The notes below the pieces were generated by a model, which was given only the letters and a program-made list of their open reading frames with translations, ran no database searches and had not been told where the DNA came from. From positions 1-30,140 of IMG/VR virus record IMGVR_UViG_3300042565_000370: 30,140 bases of DNA; one strand, 5' to 3'. This DNA comes from a virus. Below are positions 7,406 to 12,111 of this stretch, piece by piece; position 1 is the first letter of the stretch; each line of letters starts with the position of its first letter. The translations under genes were made by a program, and so were the position numbers.

Positions 7406-7677
7406 ATGTTACCAAAGAACTTGTGAGACAATTGCTTGAGCAATACCCACAGACAAGAGACAATGACAACCTTTTGATGTCAATGATTTGGCGAAGCGAA
7501 TCAAATCTGTTCAACTTCTTCCATCGTTTGGAATCAGGTAAGTTAACACCAGCGGAAACCATCCGCAGATGCCGTCAACGGTTGCAGTTAGATGATCCCG
7601 AATTGCGAGGTGAGACCTATGAGCTGCGACAAAAACACCAAGCAAAAGTGAAAAAAGAATTGGGATATAAAGTTTAG
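7402..7677 (+). CDS. Hypothetical phage protein with RDND-LL-S-IW motif
   Basis: This 91-residue protein begins MNVTKELVRQLLEQYPQTRDNDNLLMSMIWR and ends with a basic helix (ETIRRCRQRLQLDDPELRG ... KHQAKVKKELGYKV). The RDNDN-LL---IW segment and the TIRR-RR-LQ--DPELRG tail recur in small proteins of diverse phages, so this is a genuine conserved family, but its role is unknown. It is the last gene of the 6.1-7.7 kb operon, and a promoter element begins within its final codons. Confidence 0.65.
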   Translation: MNVTKELVRQLLEQYPQTRDNDNLLMSMIWRSESNLFNFFHRLESGKLTPAETIRRCRQRLQLDDPELRGETYELRQKHQAKVKKELGYKV

Positions 7678-7691
7678 TTGTAGTATATTTG
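7660..7691 (+). promoter_or_regulatory. Bacteroidota-type promoter for structured RNA / nuclease gene
   Basis: TTG at 7660-7662 and a perfect -7 element TATATTTG at 7684-7691 are 21 bases apart. Predicted transcription starts near 7696. Unlike the other promoters here, the next start codon is about 100 bases away (7794), so the transcript has a real leader, occupied by two hairpins. Confidence 0.55.
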
Positions 7692-7695
7692 TTGT

Positions 7696-7790
7696 GTTAA
7701 CGGAATGTCGCATATTCCAAAGTTACAAAGATTTTTACCCCATTAAGTTTGTGTGCAATGCGACTGCCACTTACTTTTTGGGGTTTTTTA
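7696..7790 (+). ncRNA. Structured RNA with two kissing hairpin loops
   Basis: Hairpin 1 has a 5-bp stem (7702-7706 with 7714-7718) closing a 7-base loop GTCGCAT (7707-7713). Hairpin 2 is a long imperfect stem: CCCCA 7738-7742 pairs with TGGGG 7779-7783, then AAGT with ACTT, GTG with CAC and GCA with TGC, broken by 2x2 internal loops and a bulge. It closes a 7-base loop ATGCGAC (7758-7764). The two loops are perfectly complementary over all 7 bases, as in a kissing complex. Hairpin 2 is followed at once by six T (7784-7789), so it can also act as a terminator. The element fills the gap between promoter and nuclease gene and may be a leader regulator or a separate small RNA. I do not recognise it as a known family. 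Confidence 0.6.
7738..7789 (+). terminator. Terminator-like hairpin plus T-tract ahead of nuclease gene
   Basis: The second hairpin of the leader RNA ends in a GC-rich base (CCCC/GGGG) directly followed by TTTTTT, the form of an intrinsic terminator. The inner stem is imperfect. It ends only 4 bases before the nuclease ATG at 7794, so full termination would silence the gene, and partial termination or regulated readthrough is the natural reading. Confidence 0.5.
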
Positions 7791-7793
7791 TTT

Positions 7794-8318
7794 ATGAAAT
7801 TTTTAGAAAAAGATTTGGAACAAATCATCTTTGAATCTGGAAGGGATTCATTAAGAGAAAAAGGCTTGTCAATTGAAGGCAAACTATTTAGACAATTAAG
7901 AATTGGCAATTATGGGATTGCTGATTTGGTGGAATTTACAAGACCAATGTATGACGGACCTAATCGAAAGTATTTTGTTCCTGGTCAAATTACAATTTAT
8001 GAATTAAAAAAAGAGCAAATCGGAATTGCTTCGTTTTTGCAATCCTTAAATTATGTTAAAGGAATTCAGCGGTATTTAGAAAAAAAAAGTAAGCAAGATA
8101 AATACGTTATAAATCTTGTAATTATTGGTAAGGAATTAGATACAACAGGTTCATTCTGTTTTATTAATAATTTGTTATCTATTAACAACGATTATTTTGA
8201 TTTAGAATCAAACCTTACTCAATCAGGTTCAATATGTTTTTTTACATATGAATATACTTTGGATGGTTTGAAGTTTAATTATGAAAGTGAATATGTTAAA
8301 ACTAATGAAGGTTTTTAA
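7794..8318 (+). CDS. Putative PD-(D/E)XK nuclease, accessory gene
   Basis: This 174-residue protein has the pattern of a PD-(D/E)XK nuclease: Asp44 in IADLVEF, then a strand ending in Glu70-x-Lys72 (ITIYELKKE), followed by a helix with Gln83 and Tyr (FLQSLNYVKGIQRYL). It could cut DNA or RNA, and the target is unknown. The start is ATG 7794 (a TTG at 7749 would lie inside the leader hairpin). The gene is clearly AT-richer than its neighbours, has its own promoter and a structured leader, and sits between two replication-related operons, which together suggest recent acquisition. A role in host DNA attack, competition with other phages, or toxin-like action is speculative. Confidence 0.6.
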   Translation: MKFLEKDLEQIIFESGRDSLREKGLSIEGKLFRQLRIGNYGIADLVEFTRPMYDGPNRKYFVPGQITIYELKKEQIGIASFLQSLNYVKGIQRYLEKKSKQDKYVINLVIIGKELDTTGSFCFINNLLSINNDYFDLESNLTQSGSICFFTYEYTLDGLKFNYESEYVKTNEGF

Positions 8319-8320
8319 CT

Positions 8321-8959
8321 ATGGCTATTTTTAGAAAAATACACACCTCATTTTGGAGTGATCCATTTATTCAGGATCTTGACAATGACCATCGTTTATT
8401 CTATTTGTACTTATTGACAAATGAACGCACAAAGCAATGTGGCATTTATGAAATCAGTAAAAAACAAATGTCATTTGAACTTGGATACAGTATAGATAAA
8501 GTATCTAAACTCCTTGCATACTTTATAAAAGTTGGGAAAGTTCTATATTCAGAAACAACAAAAGAGATTGCCTTAAAGAACTGGATGAAATACAACGGTT
8601 CAACATCGCCAAAAGTTGCAAGTTGCATAAAATCAGAACTTTGTCTTGTGAAGGATAGAGTATTGATAGAGTATGTAAACGGTATGTATACTGCATCGCA
8701 AGAAGAAGAAGAACAAGAAGAAGAACAAGAACAAGAAAAGAGATTCCAAAAACCGACCATTGAAGATGTTAAAACTTATATGAAAGAACAAGGAATGAAT
8801 GACATCTCCGAAAGATGGATGTCTCATTACGAATCAAACGGTTGGTTAGTTGGTAAAAACAAAATGAAAGATTGGAAAGCATCCGTGAGAACTTGGAAAT
8901 TAAATAATCTTCAAACCGAGGAAATCAAAACAAACAAACCTAAAATTGCAACCCTATGA
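8321..8959 (+). CDS. Replisome organiser / helicase loader-like protein
   Basis: This 212-residue protein starts FRKIHTSFWSDPFIQDLDNDHRLFYLYLLTN, with a winged-helix region (GIYEISKKQMSFELGYSIDKVSKLLAYF), as seen in phage replication initiators. It has a Glu/Gln-rich hinge (about residues 127-140) and a C-terminal segment GWLVGKNKMKDWKASVRTW that is shared by many phage replisome organisers of the DnaD-like type. It should bind origin DNA and bring in the helicase encoded next (ATGA overlap at 8956). The origin may lie in or near this gene, but I see no iterons. The Glu-rich hinge comes from a GAA/CAA-repeat tract. Confidence 0.72.
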   Translation: MAIFRKIHTSFWSDPFIQDLDNDHRLFYLYLLTNERTKQCGIYEISKKQMSFELGYSIDKVSKLLAYFIKVGKVLYSETTKEIALKNWMKYNGSTSPKVASCIKSELCLVKDRVLIEYVNGMYTASQEEEEQEEEQEQEKRFQKPTIEDVKTYMKEQGMNDISERWMSHYESNGWLVGKNKMKDWKASVRTWKLNNLQTEEIKTNKPKIATL

Positions 8960-10188
8960 ACACAGAAAGAATCATCCTATCCAATATGCTGTTTTACGAT
9001 GACGCAAAACACTTCTTACCAAGAATAAACAAGAACTGGTTTACGGATTCAATGTCAGCCAAATTGATTGAGGTTATGACAGAGATGTACTACAACAACG
9101 AAGCCATTGACTATGTGAGTTTATCCAAACACTTTGACCGAGTGCAAGTGATTGAGATTATCCAACTTCAACAACAGGCATCCGGCATCACGGACATCAA
9201 ACCACACTTGATGCAATTGGAACACGATTACATCAAAAAGCAAGTTGTTGAAGGTGTTTTGTCTTTGGATGTTACAAAGGAATTGAATGAGCTTGTTACC
9301 GACATACAGAATGTAGTTGAACGCACAACCTTCTCAACCCATAAAGAACCATCCAGTATTGTGAAGGTGACCAACAAGGTCGTTGATCAAATTGTATTCA
9401 ATGCACAGAACGGTGGAAACTTAACGGGTAAGCAAACCGGATGGAGATTCCTTGACAAGTACATTGGTGGATACAACGAAGGGGATTTGATTGTGGTTGC
9501 TGGTAGACCGGGAATGGGAAAGACGGCAATTGCTTTGACCTTGACAAAGGAGTTTGCACAGATTGGTGGGAAGGCTTTGTTCATTTCACTTGAGATGTCC
9601 AATGAGCAACTTGCAAAGAGATACATTTCTTTGATTGGAGACATTGCCAATTGGAAGATTCGCAACGGACAATTGAGAGAGAATGAAATCCTTCAGGTTT
9701 GTGACATTGCCAACAGACAAACGATTGAGTTCTTTATTGATGATGATGTAGATTCTCGCATCGGACAAATCAAAGCGAAAGCAAAACTTCACAAATCAAC
9801 GAAGGGATTGAACTTGCTTGTGATTGACTACATCCAGTTGATTAAAGGGACAAAGACAAACCGTGAACAAGAGATTGCAGAGATATCACGCACATTAAAA
9901 CTCCTTGCAAAGGAACTCAAAATCACGGTGATGATACTTGCACAATTATCACGCAAGAGTGAGGAGAGAGCAGACAAAAGACCGATGTTGAGTGACCTTC
10001 GGGAGTCAGGTGCAATTGAACAAGATGCCGACATCGTGATGTTTCCATTTCGTCCGATGTATTATGAGCAAGAGAAACCCGAAATGGAGGAAGCGGAGTT
10101 GATCATCGCAAAGAACCGCAACGGAGAGTGCGTCACAATACCGACATACTTTGAGGGAATGTATACCAGTTATAAGGAGAAGATATGA
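8956..10188 (+). CDS. dnaB: DnaB-type replicative helicase
   Basis: This 410-residue protein has a shortened N-terminal domain (about 130 residues) and a full RecA-like DnaB_C domain: Walker A GRPGMGKT at 183-190, FISLEMSNEQLAKR at 209-222, Walker B LLVIDYIQLI at 287-296, and late QLSRKSEERADKRPMLSDLRESG and DADIVMF segments. It unwinds DNA at the replication fork as a hexamer. It overlaps the loader gene before and the ABC-GNAT gene after by 4 bases each, so all three are co-translated. The first 180 residues are less typical, as usual in phage helicases. Confidence 0.92.
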   Translation: MNTERIILSNMLFYDDAKHFLPRINKNWFTDSMSAKLIEVMTEMYYNNEAIDYVSLSKHFDRVQVIEIIQLQQQASGITDIKPHLMQLEHDYIKKQVVEGVLSLDVTKELNELVTDIQNVVERTTFSTHKEPSSIVKVTNKVVDQIVFNAQNGGNLTGKQTGWRFLDKYIGGYNEGDLIVVAGRPGMGKTAIALTLTKEFAQIGGKALFISLEMSNEQLAKRYISLIGDIANWKIRNGQLRENEILQVCDIANRQTIEFFIDDDVDSRIGQIKAKAKLHKSTKGLNLLVIDYIQLIKGTKTNREQEIAEISRTLKLLAKELKITVMILAQLSRKSEERADKRPMLSDLRESGAIEQDADIVMFPFRPMYYEQEKPEMEEAELIIAKNRNGECVTIPTYFEGMYTSYKEKI

Positions 10189-11330
10189 GAAAGATTAAAT
10201 TATCAAATGCAATCATTGAAGATGAATACACAAAATATGTTTGTGAATCATTTGACATTCAAGACATAACAAAAACGCTTGTTGAAATTCCAATAAATTT
10301 AGATGAGTGCAAAAATTTTGATTGGCAGATTGGCGTTGTTTATGGTGGAAGTGGAAGTGGTAAAACAACGATACTCAAACATTTTGGCACAATCAAAGAA
10401 GTTGAATTTGATTCCAAAAAAGCATTGATTTCAAATTTTCATTGGTTATCTCCAAGTGATGCTTCAATACTTTTGGGTGCTATGGGATTGTCCAGTATTC
10501 CAACTTGGTTAAGACCATTTAAAGTGTTGTCAAATGGGGAACAATATCGTGCAAAATTGGCTTATTTGATAGGGAGTGCAAAAGAGAATGAAACAATTCT
10601 TGTTGATGAATTCACAAGTGTTGTTGATCGTGAGGTTGCAAAGGCAATGTCGTTTTCATTGCAAAAGTATATTCGCAAAACCAATAAAAAAATCATTGTC
10701 GCAAGTTGTCACTTTGATATAATGGAATGGTTGATGCCAGATTGGACATATTCACCATTGAAGGAGCGTGTTGAAAGACACGACTATCTTCGGCAAGGAA
10801 GACCAAAAATTAATTTACAAGTTAGTCGGTGCGAATCAAAAACTTATGACTTGTTCAAAAAGCATCACTATATGACAGAGGCAGTTAACAAAGCGTTTAA
10901 ATTTATTTTGTTTGAATGGAATGAAAAACCGATTGCAATAGCGGTGATTGGTATGCAAACATCCGGTGGCATATCAAATGCTTATAGAGATAGCCGGATT
11001 GTAGTTTTGCCAGATTATCAAGGGTTGGGTATTGGAACAAGTATCAGTAATTTTATTGGAGGTATTTGTAAAAACATTGGGTATCGTTATTTTACAAAAA
11101 CCATTCATCCAGCATTGGGAGAATATAGGAATATGAAAATATCACTTTGGAAGCCAACGATGTACAATGGTAAGCAACGAGAGAAAAAAAGAGAGGATAA
11201 AAAATATTTAAACTATCAATTTAGAAAATCATATTGCCACGAATACATTGGTGATGCAATAGATGGATATGATGAATTATTACAATCAATTGCAATTATG
11301 AGAGATTTAAAACAATACAAATTATTATGA
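10185..11330 (+). CDS. ABC-type ATPase fused to GNAT acetyltransferase-like domain
   Basis: This 381-residue protein joins two domains. Residues about 1-200 are an ABC ATPase: Walker A GGSGSGKT at 54-61, signature-like LSNGEQ at 115-120, Walker B TILVDEF at 137-143 and a switch His at 176 (ASCHF). Residues about 210-325 are a GNAT-like fold with the acyl-CoA-binding motif RIVVLPDYQGLGIG at 271-284, preceded by HHYMTEAVNKAFKFILFEW. The order ATPase then acetyltransferase is that described for COG2401. The GNAT half also resembles the Mom fold used to modify adenine in phage Mu, so DNA modification is one candidate role. There are no membrane segments, so it is not a transporter. The gene is AT-richer than the helicase gene it overlaps. 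Confidence 0.75.
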   Translation: MRKIKLSNAIIEDEYTKYVCESFDIQDITKTLVEIPINLDECKNFDWQIGVVYGGSGSGKTTILKHFGTIKEVEFDSKKALISNFHWLSPSDASILLGAMGLSSIPTWLRPFKVLSNGEQYRAKLAYLIGSAKENETILVDEFTSVVDREVAKAMSFSLQKYIRKTNKKIIVASCHFDIMEWLMPDWTYSPLKERVERHDYLRQGRPKINLQVSRCESKTYDLFKKHHYMTEAVNKAFKFILFEWNEKPIAIAVIGMQTSGGISNAYRDSRIVVLPDYQGLGIGTSISNFIGGICKNIGYRYFTKTIHPALGEYRNMKISLWKPTMYNGKQREKKREDKKYLNYQFRKSYCHEYIGDAIDGYDELLQSIAIMRDLKQYKLL

Positions 11331-11638
11331 AAATAATTGACTACCGCAGATTCAACCAACTGCGAACAAAAGCAAAAGAATTGCCAATGTACAAAGAATT
11401 CATCTCACTCGTTGAAAAGGACAAGAAGGTGCAATGCTATAACACTCTCCAAGATATGCTGTTAGATGCGTTCAAATGGGATAAAACGCCACAAGGTCAC
11501 GAGTATTGGCAATCCGTCTATGATTCAATTGTACTTGCGGAACATCCAAAATGCCCAAAGTGTAATCAACTTGGGAAGGTGTGGTTGCTGAAAACCGTAA
11601 ACAAGCACAAGTGTAACAAATGCAAAATAACATTCTAA
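11327..11638 (+). CDS. Zinc-ribbon protein next to ABC-GNAT gene
   Basis: This 103-residue protein has a helical N-terminal two thirds and a C-terminal zinc ribbon (CPKC ... CNKC, with 17 residues between the pairs). It overlaps the ABC-GNAT gene by 4 bases. Zinc ribbons of this kind bind DNA, RNA or protein. It may be an adaptor for the ABC-GNAT protein or for replication. No family name can be given. Confidence 0.6.
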   Translation: MKIIDYRRFNQLRTKAKELPMYKEFISLVEKDKKVQCYNTLQDMLLDAFKWDKTPQGHEYWQSVYDSIVLAEHPKCPKCNQLGKVWLLKTVNKHKCNKCKITF

Positions 11639-12111
11639 TGAACCCCTATCAAGAAACCCACAACCTAAAGCAAGAAATTCGCAGATTGCGTTTACAGATT
11701 GCAGACATAACCGTCAAGCACGACAAAGAGTTAAAACGATTGAAAAAAGAAATCATTCAACCCAAGTGCGATTTGAATAGCATTGATGCTGACTGGACAG
11801 ATGCAATGAGAGTTTGTTGTCAAGCCTACGATGTCACACCTGATCTCGTTATTTCATCATTGAGAAAACAATCCGTTGTGTATGCTCGTCATATGTTTTC
11901 CTTCCTTTGCCGTAAGCACTTGAAGATGACATTCTCATCAATTGGCTATATATTGGGGAGAGACCATTCCAGCGTGATGAATGCCATCAATGTCTTTGAT
12001 AATTTAGTTACACACGACAAAACAACAAGACAGACATATGAAACATCCGTTCAGTTATTGGGTGATTACTTGCACCAAAGGACTCTCCAGCACGATACAC
12101 ATCTTGTATGA
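11638..12111 (+). CDS. DnaA domain IV-like DNA-binding protein
   Basis: This 157-residue protein has an N-terminal coiled coil (LKQEIRRLRLQIADITVKHDKELKRLKKE) and a C-terminal domain matching DnaA domain IV: SLRKQSVVYARHMFSFLCRKHLK, then IGYILGRDHSSVMNAI, which is the DnaA-box-binding signature (RDH-S-V--A). The ATPase domains of DnaA are absent, so it can bind DnaA-box-like DNA but not open an origin alone. It may mark the phage origin or compete with host DnaA. ATG 11638 overlaps the upstream TAA (TAATG). An in-frame ATG at 11620 would add six residues and cannot be excluded. Confidence 0.8.
   Translation: MNPYQETHNLKQEIRRLRLQIADITVKHDKELKRLKKEIIQPKCDLNSIDADWTDAMRVCCQAYDVTPDLVISSLRKQSVVYARHMFSFLCRKHLKMTFSSIGYILGRDHSSVMNAINVFDNLVTHDKTTRQTYETSVQLLGDYLHQRTLQHDTHLV

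Follow-up and report, generated by a model that had tools for sequence, protein, structure and literature searches.

In ColE1, two RNAs made from opposite strands, RNA I and RNA II, control the replication primer, and their 7-nt loops are fully paired to each other. Plasmid pIP501 belongs with the pT181-type attenuators, in which the controlled gene is a plasmid replication gene; the pairing within the IncI-alpha repZ leader is loop-to-loop, and the complementary loops of phi29 pRNA covary. Attenuation in pT181 works by a terminator in the leader of the plasmid replication gene, and in systems of that type kissing hairpins start the RNA-RNA contact (PMC4878617). In the IncI-alpha plasmid ColIb-P9, long-range pairing within one leader controls the replication initiator repZ (PMC8383071). 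Loop contacts in the ROOL and GOLLD RNAs, first seen by covariation, proved to be intermolecular (PMC12286853). AbiF RCd22 and type III toxin-antitoxin systems have the order promoter, structured ncRNA (~100-130 nt), terminator and an ORF reached by readthrough (PMC12373285). The RNA described here appears to represent an undescribed family; many Bacteroidetes phages carry it, at the place where their replication genes start.

The window, meaning the whole stretch of DNA analysed, is a virus record of 30,140 bases. Its replication genes lie on the plus strand in the order ERF-type annealing protein, YqaJ exonuclease, leader region, initiator and DnaB helicase. Coordinates of the leader region and the genes that follow it are given in Table 1.

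Table 1. Features of the predicted leader RNA and the head of the replication operon in the window
Feature	Position	Strand	Basis or remark
Weak -33-like element, TTG	7660..7662	+	Bacteroidetes consensus TTTG/TANNTTTG (PMC6847099)
-7 promoter element TATATTTG	7684..7691	+	Bacteroidetes -7 type; predicted start 7696
Predicted leader RNA / small RNA, up to and including the T run	7696..7789	+	Fold, covariation, covariance model R1
Hairpin 1	7696..7726	+	Lower stem 7696-7701/7722-7726, 3-nt bulge 7719-7721, upper stem 7702-7706/7714-7718
Loop 1, GTCGCAT	7707..7713	+	5′ strand of loop-loop helix P3
Hairpin 2, terminator-like, ~16-20 bp stem, bulge T7754	7737..7784	+	Fold and covariation
Loop 2, ATGCGAC	7758..7764	+	3′ strand of loop-loop helix P3
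T run, predicted intrinsic terminator	7784..7789	+	Six T; kept in all class-A members (alignment A2)
First ORF of operon, small PD-(D/E)XK-like nuclease (E9, D44, E70-x-K72)	7794..8318	+	Replaceable in relatives
Replisome organizer / DnaD-like initiator	8321..8959	+	phrog_6251, 4e-45; constant neighbour of leader RNA
DnaB-like replicative helicase	8956..10188	+	Same operon as initiator

The initial annotation had placed hairpin 1 at 7702-7718 with loop GTCGCAT. That location and loop stand (7702-GGAAT-(GTCGCAT)-ATTCC-7718), while the stem is longer than described, GTTAAC at 7696-7701 being imperfectly paired with GTTAC at 7722-7726 below a 3-nt bulge. Hairpin 2 is present at 7738-7783 with loop ATGCGAC as annotated (7738-CCCC...GGGG-7783, apex GCA-(ATGCGAC)-TGC), to which we add the 1-nt bulge T7754 in its upper stem. 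The two 7-nt loops are indeed exact reverse complements, and after hairpin 2 come six T, then ATTT, then the nuclease ATG at 7794, where the T run and the start codon had been placed. The fold of 7696-7795 as RNA has an energy of -28.1 kcal/mol (z = -4.35), a value equalled by none of 200 shuffles. In the minimum-energy fold of the window alone hairpin 1 closes to a 3-nt loop, so the support for an open 7-nt loop 1 comes from relatives.

Relatives are needed on statistical grounds also. A descriptor consisting of two hairpins, complementary loops (Watson-Crick loop pairs only) and a T run, applied to the one window with no promoter demanded, has about as many matches in shuffled sequence, and the evidence must therefore come from other loci. 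Nuclease relatives were collected by two scans of IMG/VR with ORF 7794-8318, and a third scan gave two bacterial contigs. The layout precedes the ATG in 58 of 63 non-redundant nuclease-related loci, with dozens of distinct, still complementary, loop pairs; it is absent in L109, L117, L123 and L125 and doubtful in L108. When the upstream part was scored for pairing with the hairpin-2 loop (59 loci), scores of at least 18 were reached in 68% of same-locus comparisons and in 3.9% of cross-locus comparisons. With the promoter added, the descriptor made 147 matches, 73 of them distinct, across the full 1.19 Mb of fetched loci, where shuffled sequence gave 7; the majority of the 147 head a replication operon, and the small remainder does not exceed the shuffle level.

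A blind scan of IMG/VR used a DNA pattern that held the promoter edge and hairpin 1 only, with five loop letters left free. It returned 69 places, and in 68 of them an exact 7-nt complement of the loop lies 20-100 nt downstream, for which the chance expectation is about half a percent; the 69th runs off its contig. Among these places there are 35 distinct RNAs, which have six loop sequences between them. In each, an ORF begins shortly past the T run, and in 37 this is the initiator itself; by eye, the others are replication ORFs, small ORFs (several then followed by the initiator), a GIY-YIG-like ORF, or contig ends. Since the loop pairing is kept while its letters vary between phages, the pairing is real, and the comparison of sequences leaves hardly any doubt that the structured kissing-loop RNA is real too. 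The proposal of such an RNA between a Bacteroidetes promoter and a gene is thus backed by the blind scan as well as by covariation.

Covariation was counted in alignment A2 (22 sequences), which represents class A, the class of the window. Members of this class have, in order, a lower stem TTAAC/GTTAA with a bulge of ~3 nt on its 3′ side, an upper stem of 5-6 bp, a 7-nt loop and a linker of 8-10 nt, followed by a hairpin of ~20 bp with a 1-nt bulge three pairs under its 7-nt loop, the T run and the ATG. All 154 cells of the loop-loop helix P3 are Watson-Crick (100% paired), with 45 double changes distributed over six of the seven pairs, none one-sided and none broken. A change in one loop without the compensating change in the other, which the initial annotation had named as an observation that would count against it, is found in none of these 154 paired cells. 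The upper stem of hairpin 1 is 96.9% paired, with double changes at all six pairs, and its lower stem 83.5%; in hairpin 2, 97.2% of cells are paired and double changes fall at 14 of 20 pairs. As a control the partner was slid by 1-3 columns, which lowered the paired cells from 96% to 32-50%. P3 has no G-U pair, a property of that helix given a G-U share of 12% in the stems; the Watson-Crick-only descriptor does select against G-U in P3, and the A2 counts use fixed alignment columns. Structure, pairing and position are thus established by comparison, the structure itself to near certainty. Diversifying selection on the loops was considered but is not shown: change between close pairs is 0.34 in P3, 0.25-0.29 in the upper stem of hairpin 1 and 0.26-0.28 in the upper part of hairpin 2, so that the stems change almost as quickly, and a small number of loop sequences turn up repeatedly. 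In the middle of the class-A terminator stem, A2 columns 53-56/89-92 (window ~7741-7745/7775-7779) hold a conserved run of pairs rich in G-U, as though weakness at this point were favoured; the window itself is mismatched at this place.

In class B, of which L019 is an example, the loop-1 regions are longer and hairpin 2 contains an internal loop. Hairpin 1 is not a universal feature, since in some members (L062, L113, L160) the 5′ strand is not enclosed by any clear hairpin. The core common to the classes is a 5′-proximal strand, lying in most members in a loop closed by hairpin 1, that pairs with the loop at the tip of the terminator hairpin, over 6-10 Watson-Crick pairs across members; the T run is on the same strand in every member, and the median leader length is 98 nt. 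Covariance model R1, built without P3, finds the window copy once, at 77.6 bits, and weaker relatives at the right places. A search of Rfam 15 with the window and 20 loci gave no match at gathering score and none with a meaningful E-value, and nothing was found in a literature search, so the family is apparently undescribed. A leader peptide was also considered and rejected, as no conserved uORF is visible by eye and the ATG of hairpin 1 meets an immediate stop in several members (ATGTGA, ATGTAG).

The good promoter annotated just upstream corresponds to the -7 element at 7684-7691. In Flavobacterium johnsoniae the G of this element sits at -5 (PMC6847099), a spacing that predicts a start at 7696, which is the very base at which the annotated RNA had begun. 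In 46 of 58 loci the 45 nt upstream of the 5′ strand or loop 1 contain an exact TAnnTTTG, compared with 1 of 58 for the adjacent 45 nt, and several of the remaining loci have near matches such as TATATTGC. On the minus strand this promoter type is not enriched (6 of 63 regions vs 9.2 expected), and a separate antisense RNA was rejected on that ground. Bacteroidetes mRNAs are without Shine-Dalgarno sites (PMC6847099).

The tie to the nuclease, which formed part of the original proposal, turned out to be incidental, since the same RNA stands before many other first ORFs: small ORFs, HNH/NUMOD4 and GIY-YIG-like ORFs, or the initiator directly. A scan centred on the initiator, with the initiator protein as query, brought in many phages without the nuclease, and these still carry the RNA, before a small unknown ORF (L131-L152) or directly before the initiator ATG (L135, L162-L168, L169-L173). 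Elsewhere the first ORF is a NUMOD4/HNH endonuclease (L186, by Pfam; L189 and L193-L195 look alike) or an initiator with another N-terminal domain, namely DUF6291 (L174), DUF1376-like (L202) or Lin1244_N (L203). Whichever ORF comes first, the distance from the end of the RNA to the operon's first ATG is 4-30 nt; elsewhere in the fetched contigs it does not rise above shuffle level. We regard the RNA as very probably the leader of the phage replication operon. The initiators behind it are modular (window, L174, L202, L203), their C-terminal domain (KPTIEDVKTYMKEQGM...KMKDWKASVRTWK; window 8321-8959) being joined to varied N-terminal domains: DnaD-like, DUF6291, DUF1376-like or Lin1244_N. At L200:2350-2500, a related initiator is directly preceded by a terminator hairpin, with Firmicutes-like promoter signals and a possible upstream complement (CAACAC/GTGTTG); could this arrangement be a different attenuator?

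The RNA is spread across many Bacteroidetes tailed phages and was found in the named isolates Cellulophaga phage Nekkels_1, with its leader at about 8850-8990 of L126, and Tenacibaculum phage JQ, with a 10-bp pairing, AGCATCCTAC/GTAGGATGCT, upstream of its initiator operon. No such RNA was seen in the same-initiator phages of Vibrio and Geobacillus that were examined, nor in the Bacteroides and Porphyromonas phages examined. Occurrence in bacterial chromosomes was rejected, since R1 run against 395 genomes of the class gave a single match with E 0.014, treated as chance.

ORF 7794-8318, one of several ORFs able to occupy the interval between RNA and initiator, is a small PD-(D/E)XK-type protein, in which E9, D44, E70-x-K72 and Q83 are invariant in 28 relatives. 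Its AlphaFold model has pLDDT 83, and the closest PDB entry, EndoMS, is a weak match (E = 0.006). Its N-terminus, (M)KFLEKDLE (window 7794-7820), is nearly invariant even at 35% overall identity, with no residues preceding it. In other leader classes the motif ATACGGAAYGT / AATAACGGAATGTT abuts the nuclease ATG (29 of 62 non-redundant loci; e.g. L019:1210-1220 and L126:8990-9000), and all 35 of its exact occurrences in fetched loci directly precede that ATG; it is not a Shine-Dalgarno site and is possibly an operator for the nuclease itself. Farther along the window, 10185-11330 encodes a fusion of ABC-type ATPase and GNAT acetyltransferase parts (phrog_11143, of unknown function), and 11620-12111 encodes a small protein whose match is to DnaA, in the C-terminal (DNA-binding) part, alongside the DnaD-like initiator.

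As to function, we give about an even chance to the reading that the leader is a transcription attenuator of the replication operon; termination, readthrough control, the direction of the effect and trans action are all parts of it that we infer. Transcription would begin at the base of hairpin 1 and make a leader of ~97 nt. Hairpin 2 would serve as an intrinsic terminator at which most transcripts stop, at the T run, leaving a short RNA, while a minority would continue into the genes for the initiator and the helicase. The ratio of readthrough would be set by the loop-loop contact, which is able to form before the terminator stem closes, either in cis or between two copies of the RNA. The gap between the terminator and the operon is too short for another promoter, so transcripts from this promoter must cross it to reach the operon, and the leader is an attenuator if hairpin 2 does terminate. 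We count in favour of an attenuator leader the strand-specific signs of an RNA, namely the 12% G-U in the stems, the promoter at a set distance and the T run on the same strand. A non-systematic look revealed no alternative antiterminator stem, and in every model P3 stays clear of stem 2; there is thus no sign of a classical antiterminator, and termination and kissing are not plainly exclusive. In a crude A-form model the 9-nt linker reaches only if the stack bends by ~40-60 degrees. Pairing in cis would on this modelling be feasible but strained, and two RNA copies pairing with each other are an alternative to be taken seriously; the intermolecular contacts of ROOL and GOLLD are a warning that P3 may be intermolecular. 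The roles first suggested for the RNA (readthrough control, a small RNA, action in trans) still stand as possibilities.

Less probable is an independent small RNA that would act elsewhere, on host or phage RNAs or together with a protein. It would have its own promoter and terminator, it is compact (median 98 nt) and structured from first to last base, and the genes upstream run in the same direction in 59 of 61 loci, so that the operon could be read from upstream promoters. However, in every case the RNA is linked to the ATG with which the replication operon opens, occurring elsewhere only at shuffle level, and a trans-acting RNA need not stay ~30 nt from one operon while the first ORF swaps.

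The attenuator could, more doubtfully, be its own antisense. Both loops are on one RNA, so pairing of the short product with nascent copies is likewise possible; terminated copies would then kiss nascent ones in trans, and expression of the replication genes would be damped as genome copies rise. If this were true, phages with the same loop pair would interfere with each other, and tailed phages would have plasmid-style copy control and incompatibility.

An RNA of the replication origin, whose transcript or R-loop would prime or open a phage origin beside the initiator gene, seems improbable. The initiator gene is the constant neighbour across several initiator families, and ColE1 RNA II, a plasmid primer, also has kissing hairpin loops, but a terminator directly before an ATG better suits gene control. 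GC skew does not turn at the RNA, either in the window or in phage JQ, which says little, as all genes are on one strand.

Very improbable is an RNA partner or antitoxin of the nuclease, in the style of AbiF or type III toxin-antitoxin systems. The order of parts is as in AbiF RCd22 (PMC12373285), and the RNA is present at 58 of 63 nuclease loci, yet many phages have it without the nuclease, before the initiator or unrelated ORFs, and neither RF03085 (abiF) nor any other Rfam family matched; as a general function this partnership is refuted by the nuclease-free loci of the initiator-centred search. An ordinary terminator beside a chance hairpin, which the shuffle frequency of single-window layouts would allow, can practically be dismissed given the same-locus pairing scores and the blind scan, and is refuted by the covariation of P3.

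The leader looks like an undescribed switch for phage replication, with at its core a predicted terminator that has its loop caught by the 5′ part of its own RNA, through a pairing that varies freely while its complementarity stays perfect. It offers a concrete, testable handle on replication control in little-studied phages, and possibly a case of RNA-based copy or compatibility control outside plasmids.

Among known systems, phi29 pRNA and ROOL/GOLLD are likewise phage RNAs with covarying complementary loops; they differ in size, place and structure, and no Rfam model matched here. AbiF and type III toxin-antitoxin systems share the order promoter, ncRNA, terminator and ORF, but the phage leader occurs independently of the nuclease, so that the defining link to a toxin gene fails, and it is a single unit with no tandem repeats and no abiF motif (RF03085). 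The likeness to ColE1 RNA I/RNA II drawn by the initial annotation holds for loop geometry only; it does not extend to the strands, sense and antisense RNAs being paired there, whereas both loops here are on one RNA from one strand and antisense promoters are not enriched. With pT181 and pIP501 the leader shares kissing hairpins and an intrinsic terminator (here recognized by sequence) ahead of replication genes. Those plasmids, however, use a separate antisense RNA from the opposite strand and an antiterminator stem that competes with the terminator, whereas here both loops are on one RNA, a non-systematic look showed no such stem, and antisense TAnnTTTG promoters are not enriched. The IncI-alpha repZ leader has the same long-range pairing within a leader ahead of an initiator gene, but controls translation, its pseudoknot freeing the ribosome site of the initiator, involves an antisense RNA (Inc) and has no terminator at that place. 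The phage leader does not appear to be a member of either group; in its proposed working it resembles these plasmid replication-gene leaders, pT181 and IncI-alpha repZ.
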